60,594 nt of DNA, taken from positions 1 through 60,594 of the forward strand of contig JAFUTQ010000107.1 in assembly GCA_017484135.1 (NCBI GenBank), read 5' to 3'. A program made the translations under genes and the position numbers. This DNA comes from Lachnospiraceae bacterium (GTDB lineage Bacteria > Bacillota > Clostridia > Lachnospirales > Lachnospiraceae). Below, in pieces: positions 12,088-59,171 of this stretch (the stretch's first letter is position 1; each line of letters starts with the position of its first letter). A model generated the notes under the pieces. It had not been told where the DNA came from. It saw only the letters and a program-made list of their open reading frames with translations, and did no database searches.

Positions 12088-12253
12088 GTCACTGACAGGA
12101 TGCCGGGGGAAATAGGTTCACATCGTGAAACGATGTGAACCCTTTGCACAAAAATGTCTGGGGAATGCTAGCATTTCCCAGACATTTCTTGTGCAAAGAG
12201 TCAATGCCGGCTGCGCCGGCATGACCTATTTCCCCCGGCATCCTGTCAGTGAC
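12088..12253 (+). repeat. Cloverleaf palindromic element, copy 1
   Basis: A 166-bp intergenic element built of four nested inverted repeats. A perfect 29-bp outer stem (12088-12116 with 12225-12253) encloses three hairpins: hairpin 1 at 12117-12139 (TTCACATCGT / ACGATGTGAA, loop GAA), hairpin 2 at 12142-12198 (about 27 bp, base CTTTGCACAA / TTGTGCAAAG, with one bulge), and hairpin 3 at 12204-12222 (ATGCCGGC / GCCGGCAT, loop TGC). Two more copies with the same order occur at 53.8 and 58.1 kb. It lies between two plus-strand genes. Whether it acts as DNA or RNA is unknown. Confidence 0.85.
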
Positions 12254-19624: not shown

Positions 19625-19879
19625 GTAAATCCCTTAAGTATTCTAGCACCATCGCCTCAACACTCTTATTGACCGTTTCACAAGTCTGTACAGCTATCTG
19701 TACACGTAGGAGCATGCGCTCCCTTGGTTGTAAGTAACCAACTTATAAAATTTGAGCTTTTAACTCAATCAATAATGCAGCTTTTGCTGCGGTTCGGCGT
19801 TGGACCCGGCTGTCCGTATGGCCTCAACCCATCTGGGTGGTCCGAAATACTAGTATGCAGACCATTGTCCGCAAAATCC
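19591..19879 (-). ncRNA. Structured RNA or leader upstream of the polyamine operon
   Basis: About 290 nt from a consensus promoter to an intrinsic terminator, without a credible ORF. On the minus strand hairpins follow in close succession: GGTCTG / CGGACC with an inner ATAC / GTAT (19839-19863), GGAC / GTCC (19802-19815), GCAGC / GCTGC (19777-19790), TTGAG / CTCAA (19752-19768), TTGGTT / AACCAA (19724-19741), GGAGC / GCTCC (19709-19722) and TGTACAG / CTGTACA (19687-19704). A possible long-range helix CTTGTGAA / TTTACAAG touches the terminator arm. It may be a free ncRNA (a raiA-type RNA is one guess from size and context) or a terminator-controlled leader of potABCD. I could not assign it to a known class. 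Confidence 0.7.
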
Positions 19880-47802: not shown

Positions 47803-48034
47803 AAAAAAAGTCGCCTCCTTTTCGCACTTCATAAATCAGTACGACAAGCGGTGACTGTACACTTCTCCGTGTGTGTCCTTCTGACTTTCACACGTTGTTT
47901 CTACTTTTCTTCGTTGTAGACGATTTTCGTGATACAGTGACTTGTCGCCAGTTTCCTAACTTGACATTCGCTCCACGGAAAACCTGCCACAGCGGGCAGC
48001 AACCTCACGCTTCTACGCTATCAATGTCACAGCA
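47803..48034 (-). promoter_or_regulatory. Structured S10-operon leader
   Basis: About 230 nt of untranslated leader before rpsJ. A long-range stem joins CGACAAG and ACTGTA (47947-47941 and about 47939-47933 region) with TACAGT and CTTGTCG (47859-47842); it encloses smaller hairpins, one of them CGTGTG / CACACACG near 47865-47895. This makes a multi-branched fold just upstream of the ribosome-binding site. By analogy with other ribosomal operons it may mediate autoregulation by a ribosomal protein; which one is unknown. Confidence 0.55.
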
Positions 48035-53829: not shown

Positions 53830-53965
53830 GTCAAAAGGTGGAGCTGCCGCACCTTTTGGTGCGACAGCTCCACACTTTGCACAAAAACCGCTTCGAAAAG
53901 CTAGCTTTCCGAAGCGGTTTTTATGCAAAGAGTCTATGCCGACTACGTCGGCATGACCTTTTGAC
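53830..53965 (+). repeat. Cloverleaf palindromic element, copy 2
   Basis: A 136-bp version of the same element as at 12088-12253. Outer stem 10 bp (53830-53839 / 53956-53965, GTCAAAAGGT / ACCTTTTGAC). Hairpin 1 is a different sequence but the same shape (GTGGAGCTG-CGCACC / GGTGCG-CAGCTCCAC, TTTT loop, 53838-53873). Hairpin 2 keeps the base CTTTGCACAAAAA (53875-53930). Hairpin 3 is ATGCCGAC / GTCGGCAT with loop TAC (53936-53954), preceded by AGTCT and followed by GA. It lies between convergent genes. Confidence 0.85.
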
Positions 53966-58104: not shown

Positions 58105-58120
58105 TACTTTTTTGAAATTA

Positions 58121-58271
58121 TATGCGGTTGATCTCCAAAGGTTCACATCGTGAAACGATGTGAACTTTTGCGCAGGAACGTCCAACAGAAAGCCGACTTT
58201 CCGTTGGACGTTCCTGCGCAAAAAAGTCTATGCCGACTTTGTCGGCATGATCTTTGGCGGTCAACCTCATA
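58121..58271 (+). repeat. Cloverleaf palindromic element, copy 3
   Basis: A 151-bp copy of the same element. Outer stem about 20 bp with mismatches (58121-58140 / 58251-58271, TATGCGGTTGA... / ...TCAACCTCATA, plus CCAAAG / CTTTGG). Hairpin 1 (58141-58165) has the same sequence as copy 1, extended to 11 bp. Hairpin 2 is a perfect 21-bp stem (58166-58186 / 58203-58223) with a further GAAAG / CTTTC inside. Hairpin 3 (58230-58248) is ATGCCGAC / GTCGGCAT with loop TTT. The right arm abuts the stop codon of the APH-like gene. Confidence 0.85.
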
Positions 58272-59171
58272 TTATTCCCGTCTTGCATACCAAACAGGAA
58301 TTACTCTTCGGAAATTTTCAAAATCTTCAAACGCGGTTATGCATCGCTTTTGCATTCGATCGATATCCTCCTGTCCGAACTTTTCCGCCCACTTAATGGA
58401 ATACAGCGCTGCATGTGCCGCATAAACTGCATGGACGTTCCAGAAATCCTCCGGAATATCATCGTCAAAATACGCATCAATTTGCCCGATACAATACGGA
58501 ATGCTGATCTCCCTCACAAAGCTTTCTAATTTTAAAAACTCCTCATAAGGATCCCCAACCTCCCAGCGGTTGAAGTCGATGACCCCGATCGAGCCATCCT
58601 CCATGTAAATCAGGTTCCCCGGGTGAAAATCTCCATGCTCATATACCGGCTTTTCCTTCCAGATACGCCATATATTATCCTTCACATACTGGATCGCAGG
58701 TTCATCATGCTCCACACGAACCTTTGAATCCTCATACAGCTGAAGCTGCCGTAATTTCTTTTCCTTTTTCGTCGTTTGGGGGACATCCTGCTGCTCCACC
58801 TCAATGCTATGGATTTTTCGCAGAATCATTCCGGCATCCCGTCCCAGCTGATACTGTTTTGCTTCCGGCAGAGTCGGCAGCACCCGCTCTAAATCCGGCC
58901 CTTCCACCCAGCTTAAAAGCATATAGGTATTTTTGCGCTGATTACATTTCCCAAAGGAAATTGGCCTCGACATATTTATGCCCGTCTTGGAATATTTCTC
59001 AATGATCTCGAACTCTTTTTTCTTTCCTTCATATGTATCAATCGGAGAGATTCGAAGAAGCTGTTTTTGCCCTTCTTCTGTAATGATCAGATACTTTTCG
59101 TCCGTGGACCATCCCTTTGCTATTTTTTTGATGGACCTCCATGTTTTGGAACCTTCGATATCTTCAAACAT
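58272..59171 (-). CDS. Phosphotransferase, aminoglycoside phosphotransferase (APH)-like
   Basis: A 299-residue protein of the protein-kinase-like fold. The catalytic loop YEHGDFHPGNLI (HGDxxxxN) and the metal site IGVIDFNRWEVGDPYEEF are intact; an N-terminal lobe with ITEEGQKQLLRISPIDTYE precedes them. Members of this broad family phosphorylate antibiotics, choline, methylthioribose or other small molecules; the substrate here is unknown and resistance should not be assumed. Start supported by GAGGAG. Downstream on the minus strand is repeat copy 3. Confidence 0.85.
   Translation of the reverse strand: MFEDIEGSKTWRSIKKIAKGWSTDEKYLIITEEGQKQLLRISPIDTYEGKKKEFEIIEKYSKTGINMSRPISFGKCNQRKNTYMLLSWVEGPDLERVLPTLPEAKQYQLGRDAGMILRKIHSIEVEQQDVPQTTKKEKKLRQLQLYEDSKVRVEHDEPAIQYVKDNIWRIWKEKPVYEHGDFHPGNLIYMEDGSIGVIDFNRWEVGDPYEEFLKLESFVREISIPYCIGQIDAYFDDDIPEDFWNVHAVYAAHAALYSIKWAEKFGQEDIDRMQKRCITAFEDFENFRRVIPVWYARRE

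Follow-up and report, generated by a model that had tools for sequence, protein, structure and literature searches.

We describe a family of intergenic palindromic elements in Lachnospiraceae, three copies of which lie in the window (the whole stretch of 60,594 nucleotides of contig JAFUTQ010000107.1 analysed here). We consider it probable that the family is new and MITE-like and that replication template switching homogenises, extends and flips its palindromes. The outer stems of the elements look like a natural record of a DNA-copying error and not like a known RNA gene.

Results

Three window elements share a three-hairpin core

The three elements have one common plan, as the original prediction had it, and the family is larger than first noted. 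Its core of about 113 bp consists of three hairpins enclosed by AAAAGG...CCTTTT, in the order AAAAGG, hairpin 1 (three-base loop), hairpin 2, AGTC, hairpin 3 (three-base loop), GACC and TTTT. Hairpin 2 is made up of a base TTTGCNCA, a variable middle and a tip GGAAAGCNNGCTTTCC or alike, and each strand of the 113-bp core can adopt the three-hairpin fold. On the plus strand, copy 1 has a left outer arm of 27 nt (12088..12114) that is the perfect complement of the right outer arm (12227..12253). The conserved core between them (12115..12226; covariance model E 2.7e-25) holds hairpin 1 (12116..12140, GTTCACATCGT GAA ACGATGTGAAC), hairpin 2 (12143..12197, base TTTGCACA..TGTGCAAA, variable middle, tip AATGCTAGCATT) and, after the linker AGTCA, hairpin 3 (12204..12222, ATGCCGGC TGC GCCGGCAT). 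The outer stem of this copy had been described as 29 bp and perfect; perfect it is, and its length has to be corrected to 30 nt at 100% complementarity (12088-12117 versus 12224-12253). Copy 2 (whole element 53830..53965, plus strand; core 53837-53958) has short arms GTCAAAAGG/CCTTTTGAC, and its hairpin 1 is a different, longer hairpin. In copy 3, also on the plus strand, the conserved core (58140..58252; covariance model E 1.1e-21) is flanked by outer arms of 24 nt with 4 mismatches (58116..58139 and 58253..58276), and hairpin 1 is identical to that of copy 1 over 27 nt. The outer stems were said to differ between copies and yet stay complementary, which holds perfectly for copy 1 and imperfectly for copy 3.

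The hairpin-3 sequence ATGCCG..CGGCAT, which was expected in all copies, occurs exactly three times in the window (12204-12222, 53936-53954 and 58230-58248), and at least three occurrences were obtained in 0 of 100 shuffles. The motif TTTGCRCA, taken by itself, is not significant in the window: there are 10 matches compared to 6.1 expected, and 8 of 100 shuffles reach 10.

About 100 places in the host and a patchy distribution beyond it

To the covariance model R1, built from 36 cores, the host genome (G000, a draft of 116 contigs that is 83% complete) gave 150 listed matches, which is the number scored. These merge to 101 places if starts more than 60 bases apart are taken as separate; the same place was often matched on both strands, as the core differs little from its own reverse complement. 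Some of the 101 places are fragments; in two cases (L006 and L008) another repeat has split a copy and the place is its second half. The further copies that the original prediction proposed to look for with such a model are thus present, at about 100 places in the host. A strict hairpin-3 pattern found 44 host places (23 forward and 21 reverse), with no match for the reversed control and none in 60 relatives.

Covariance-model matches were obtained in 7 of 397 genomes of the family, namely the host, the same-genus genome G005, G226, G290, G347 (weak), G357 and G408; weak matches are also present in G057, which belongs to another family of the order. An exact hairpin-1 pattern led to four Lachnospiraceae metagenome-assembled genomes: RGIG2561, RUG12461 (G357), RUG14305 (G290) and RUI241. 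Most intact copies in other genera form the same three hairpins, with different hairpin 1 and hairpin 3 sequences. Three exact patterns had no match in viral contigs, and a distant BLAST search of plasmids and phages with one core had none either; we therefore set aside carriage on phages or plasmids. In G057, L076 and L080 belong to a different multi-hairpin element. Its outer stem resembles GTTCAGACAAGC/GCTTGTCTGAAC and its tip is similar (GAAAGCNNGCTTTC); it may be a distant family or a convergent one.

The genomes carrying the evidence are multi-contig drafts, and palindromes break assemblies. Contigs often end in or near an element, in G290 behind L212, L213, L214, L217, L219, L233 and L240 and in the host at C109, C82, C97, C29 and C112, and the assemblies appear to be broken by these palindromes. 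A separate, REP-like repeat is nested in the hairpins of some elements, at the hairpin 2 tip in L006 and L008 and in hairpin 1 in L032, L126 and L119. Among the 50 matches listed in the host for a query that contains this repeat, 6 are only to a flanking hairpin of the cloverleaf element; many of the remainder are about 45-65 bp long and some stand in close pairs, in a host with no Y1 transposase match.

Terminal repeats and target duplications indicate mobility

Like MITEs, the elements have no coding capacity and are small, the 113-bp core and two arms of 3-69 bp (counting arms that do not reach a contig end) making up about 120-250 bp; one lineage also has shared terminal inverted repeats and a direct target duplication. 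The terminal repeat of this MITE-like lineage is GATTTGAGGG(T/G)CAAAAGG. Arms of the GATTTGAGGGNCAAAA type, with at most 4 mismatches on each side, are present in 31 of the 79 readable host copies and absent from the other 48. A perfect direct duplication of 7 bp lies outside the repeat in 4 of the 31 (permutation mean 0.2, maximum 3, 10,000 draws) and is lacking in 27; the mean identity of this class is modestly above permutations for 7 bp (P 0.013), with no excess for 8 bp. L112 has an 8-bp direct duplication and L097 a 7-bp one in another register. In a second genus (G290), a rule located both ends of 7 copies, and 4 of these have perfect 7-bp duplications. The remaining copies match at 6, 5 and 3 of 7 positions, and the observed sum was reached by 2 of 5,040 permutations; the 6-bp and 8-bp registers gave no signal.

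Inspection of the first 150 bases of each of 20 host loci with unpaired terminal repeats revealed mostly truncated or internally deleted copies and a few chance matches, with no autonomous partner seen in those bases. An automatic rule placed the right end in 11 of these loci, which showed no 7-bp signal (35 versus 33.9 expected). L195 has an 8-bp direct repeat. The tiny derivatives L189, L195, L196, L199 and L204 consist of one terminal repeat and the last bases of the other (by eye), as if deleted between TCANATC-like repeats. The ends differ between genera: in the G226 copies (L159, L164, L167, L170 and L172) the same core is part of a longer element whose ends are CTTGAGTTTCC, and several of them show apparent longer direct repeats of about 7-13 bp by eye. 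These copies look as if the core had been combined with different transposon ends.

A mobile element moved by an unlinked transposase was among the candidates first put forward. The terminal repeats and target duplications support the mobility of an element without its own transposase, but the Y1 transposase (PF01797) of the IS200/IS605 or RAYT type that had been suggested was not found: there are 0 matches in the carriers G000 (83% complete) and G005 (99% complete), and Y1 was rejected as the mover. Among same-genus genomes, 4 of 8 have a Y1 match (G001, G002, G004 and G006), and all four are without the element by model R1. That no transposase partner was found counts against a MITE-like element, whose movement in trans is presumed.

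Outer stems vary between copies and are complementary within them

Arms of at least 20 bp are present in 42 of 79 copies, the longest in mid-contig being 69 bp with 2 mismatches, and perfect arms of at least 25 bp (25-64 bp) are present in 14 of 79. The longest of the perfect arms, in L066, is near a contig end, as are the arms of L043, L125 and L114; that of L043 (139 bp) reaches the contig end and may be an artefact. Over 37 aligned copies, the mean difference is 52% in the arms, 53-56% in the middle of hairpin 2, 5-6% in hairpin 1 and 2-3% in hairpin 3. The conservation of hairpins 1 and 3 suggests a constraint beyond mutation, and our guess is that they are kept constant via recognition by a transposase. 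Other genera have retained the three-hairpin core, so the elements may plausibly act in mobility through DNA structure, as a four-way-junction DNA site.

Complementarity of an arm to its own partner averages 0.91 over 73 copies, and the mean arm identity in 49 pairs of copies with cores 92-95% identical is 0.58. Arms are unrelated despite near-identical cores in L001/L044 (cores 95% identical, identity of the 18-nt arm 0.39), L035/L044 and L001/L037. Where cores reach 95% identity or more (9 pairs), the arms have a median identity of 0.94, owing to six pairs that fall within the terminal-repeat lineage; the other three pairs have unrelated arms. Duplications or insertions are symmetric, i.e., present in both arms, in L033, L113, L039 and L074. 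In L120, the terminal repeat makes up the inner part of the arm, and outward of it comes the 3' coding end of a DJ-1/PfpI gene (Pfam E 2e-48), the gene end reading DIEHLKGALVY compared to DIEHVKKGLVF in the closest relative. The L044 arm spans the last codons of a gene with Asp-box repeats, with TW read by eye as part of such a motif. The arms are thus homogenised within copies, as template switching predicts, and the unique complementary stems, the symmetric indels and the copied gene end in L120 support the earlier proposal that the stems formed by inverted duplication.

A possible but less likely alternative is that the core makes its own inverted repeats: insertion, or each passage of replication, would copy flanking host DNA into an inverted arm, with the palindrome growing outward and the core flipping. 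If true, this would be a novel route (inverted target duplication) by which a mobile element gains ends without inheriting them. That the insertion reaction itself makes the inverted copy of the flank, with the core joining a 3' end, folding back and priming synthesis on the target, seems unlikely to us. The 14 of 79 copies with perfect arms (25-64 bp), some of which have near-identical cores, would fit such a reaction, as would an adjacency scan that found no direct repeat longer than 6 bp beside these arms. However, the terminal-repeat lineage has ordinary direct duplications, L120, L055 and L026 are extended outside a recognisable terminal repeat, and arms differ at sites shared between species (see below), for which no new insertion is needed.

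Covariation in the outer stem has the marks of DNA-level change

Covariation, which the original prediction proposed as a test of the fold, is present: in 17 copies from four genomes and three genera, 26 of 43 pairs have two-sided changes in MAFFT alignments that may favour the fold, and 0 of 500 shuffles reach 26 (shuffle mean 11.6). If pairing of one RNA strand were selected, G-U should exceed A-C. The outer-stem cells of the 37 aligned copies comprise 208 two-sided changes, 16 G-U, 16 A-C and 37 other unpaired cells, and the equality of G-U and A-C argues against such selection; the middle of hairpin 2 has 88 two-sided, 8 G-U, 8 A-C and 8 other unpaired cells. In the lower part, or base, of hairpin 2, G-U cells outnumber A-C cells by 42 to 7. 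Folding energy does not differ between the plus and minus strands (P 0.16 for 79 copies and P 0.23 for 28 others), and the folds contain 120 G-U pairs on the plus and 150 on the minus strand. With G-U equal to A-C and no strand bias, selection on an RNA fold, one of the causes first proposed for the outer-stem covariation, is not supported.

An orientation bias was likewise sought and is absent between tandem genes, with 23 ++ and 24 -- among 79 contexts by gene calls that are crude open reading frames. In agreement with the view that the elements match no known family, they have no Rfam match at gathering thresholds. The two Rfam hits in the window both lie elsewhere and are an S10-Clostridia ribosomal leader (47942-48023, minus strand) and SpF59_sRNA (19794-19843, minus strand). 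An RNA gene was rejected for the lack of an Rfam match on the elements together with the lack of strand bias. We also think it distinctly unlikely that the elements are structured RNA, regulatory or terminator-like, with a selected fold and stem changes compensated stepwise. Covariation above all 500 shuffles, the G-U excess at the hairpin-2 base and the many copies close behind an open-reading-frame stop (by the same crude calls) would be consistent with this, but the outer arms have few intermediates as well as equal G-U and A-C, neither strand folds better, and the L120 arm carries a gene end. Strong covariation, then, need not imply a functional RNA: the outer stem here stands up to shuffle controls, and the reason seems to lie at the DNA level.

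Long inverted repeats are rare outside the family

About 384 kb of distinct host DNA, mostly around copies, contains 87 inverted repeats with arms of at least 20 bp. By motif-based sorting, 84 of these have element motifs, two more correspond to hairpin 2 in known copies, and the last is unrelated. Long inverted repeats outside the family are thus rare, and therefore the arms arise with or after insertion. The same rarity disfavours insertion into ready-made palindromes, and we regard it as very improbable that the element targets the middle of palindromes that were already there, for example terminators. The arms often begin just past a stop codon, and the second, REP-like repeat sits inside element hairpins (L006, L008, L032, L119 and L126), both of which are consistent with such insertion. 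However, homologs of L120 in 7 same-genus genomes have no such palindrome (in the 400 nt downstream, exact inverted copies do not exceed 8 nt, compared to 14 nt in the host), and one lineage has terminal repeats and direct duplications.

Cores are inverted at three of four sites shared by sister species

Around copy 1, same-genus relatives align only in short stretches of 65-78% identity, and 3 of 8 genomes have no match. Since these relatives are too far for intergenic comparison, we used the sister pair RGIG2561 and RUG12461 (G357), whose aligned flanks are mostly 80-90% identical. RGIG2561 has 14 copies in 13 loci, nine of which were placed in the examined part of G357; L215, L218, L236 and the two in L239 were not placed. 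Four intact sites are common to both genomes (L206, L208, L211 and L216), and the comparison of orientation rests on these four pairs. Relative to the flanks, the core is inverted in three of them (L206/L237, L208/L235 and L211/L247) and in the same orientation in L216/L298. Inversion of the spacer between orthologous sites is clear in L208/L235, where 109 of 113 core positions are the same and the remaining four make up two compensated pairs; this site adjoins a tRNA-Leu gene. In L206/L237 and L211/L247, hairpin 2 and the arms differ as well (core identity 0.79), and separate insertion, or replacement by another copy, could also account for these two pairs. L216/L298 have the same inner arms and a hairpin 1 that differs by compensated changes, and their hairpin-2 tip fits better as the reverse complement (1 mismatch of 32) than directly (5). 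At L227/L275, the core is deleted between two CATG repeats and the arms are left. In G357 the element is absent at L234/L254 and at L226/L290 (the latter judged on the left flank only), and occupancy is unclear for L209 and L221, which are among the nine placed.

A site-specific invertible segment (inverton) with a recombinase acting at the arms would also give inverted cores at three of four shared sites, but this is hardly credible given that arm sequences differ between copies and would not be expected to be acceptable to a site-specific recombinase, that no fixed recombination site is present in the arms, and that a hairpin tip alone also fits inversion.

Discussion

The reading that we consider probable starts from a multicopy, protein-free MITE-like element, its 113-bp three-hairpin core enclosed by an inverted repeat, which in one lineage inserted with short direct target duplications, presumably through a transposase acting in trans. 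After insertion, the palindrome would be rewritten during replication as the polymerase switches template between the arms, either by folding back on the nascent strand or by moving onto the sister arm. Copying of point changes and indels from arm to arm would keep the stems complementary while their sequence drifts, and copying past the end of an arm would invert flanking DNA and lengthen the stem with unique sequence. Template switching would sometimes invert the core or a hairpin tip, and deletions between short direct repeats would give rise to the derivatives. The outcomes, i.e., unique perfect stems, symmetric indels, a copied gene end and an inverted core, can be read from the compared sequences, and the polymerase mechanism is one that we infer by analogy with the published signature of template switching. 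With about 100 copies of one palindrome in a single genome, and relatives in other species at shared sites, the family is a natural data set on the correction, extension, flipping and deletion of palindromes in bacteria.

No named repeat with this three-hairpin plan is described in the parts of the literature covered by our search. As far as they are described in the sections compared, the bacterial MITEs and hairpin repeats bcr1, ERIC (PMC2267715) and RU-1 of 127 bp (PMC2759123) are likewise short, non-coding, intergenic and multicopy and fold into hairpins, and we count the terminal inverted repeats and target duplications of one lineage here as a further likeness. Set against them, the present family has a three-hairpin core, stems that each copy has rewritten with symmetric indels and unique sequence from its flank, cores inverted at shared sites, and a patchy spread over genera with different ends. 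The GTAG/CGTC-tagged REP elements, in the portion of PMC3733652 consulted, are also palindromic, extragenic and present in many copies; they are 20-40 bp long, and a Y1 transposase match is lacking here in G000 and G005. Arm homogenisation and spacer inversion are described as signs of template switching between inverted repeats (in the part of PMC8604942 used here), and the creation and repair of perfect stems is argued in the corresponding part of PMC8794818. The likeness to the mutations treated there lies in arm homogenisation, multi-base compensated changes and inversion of a spacer or loop. Within those same parts, published template switching is treated for coding genes of yeast, for RNA genes, those of bacteria among them, and, through a cited survey, for short inverted repeats in Proteobacteria. 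The present case differs in that a single mobile palindrome has about 100 copies per genome and that its arms have been extended into the DNA beside it.
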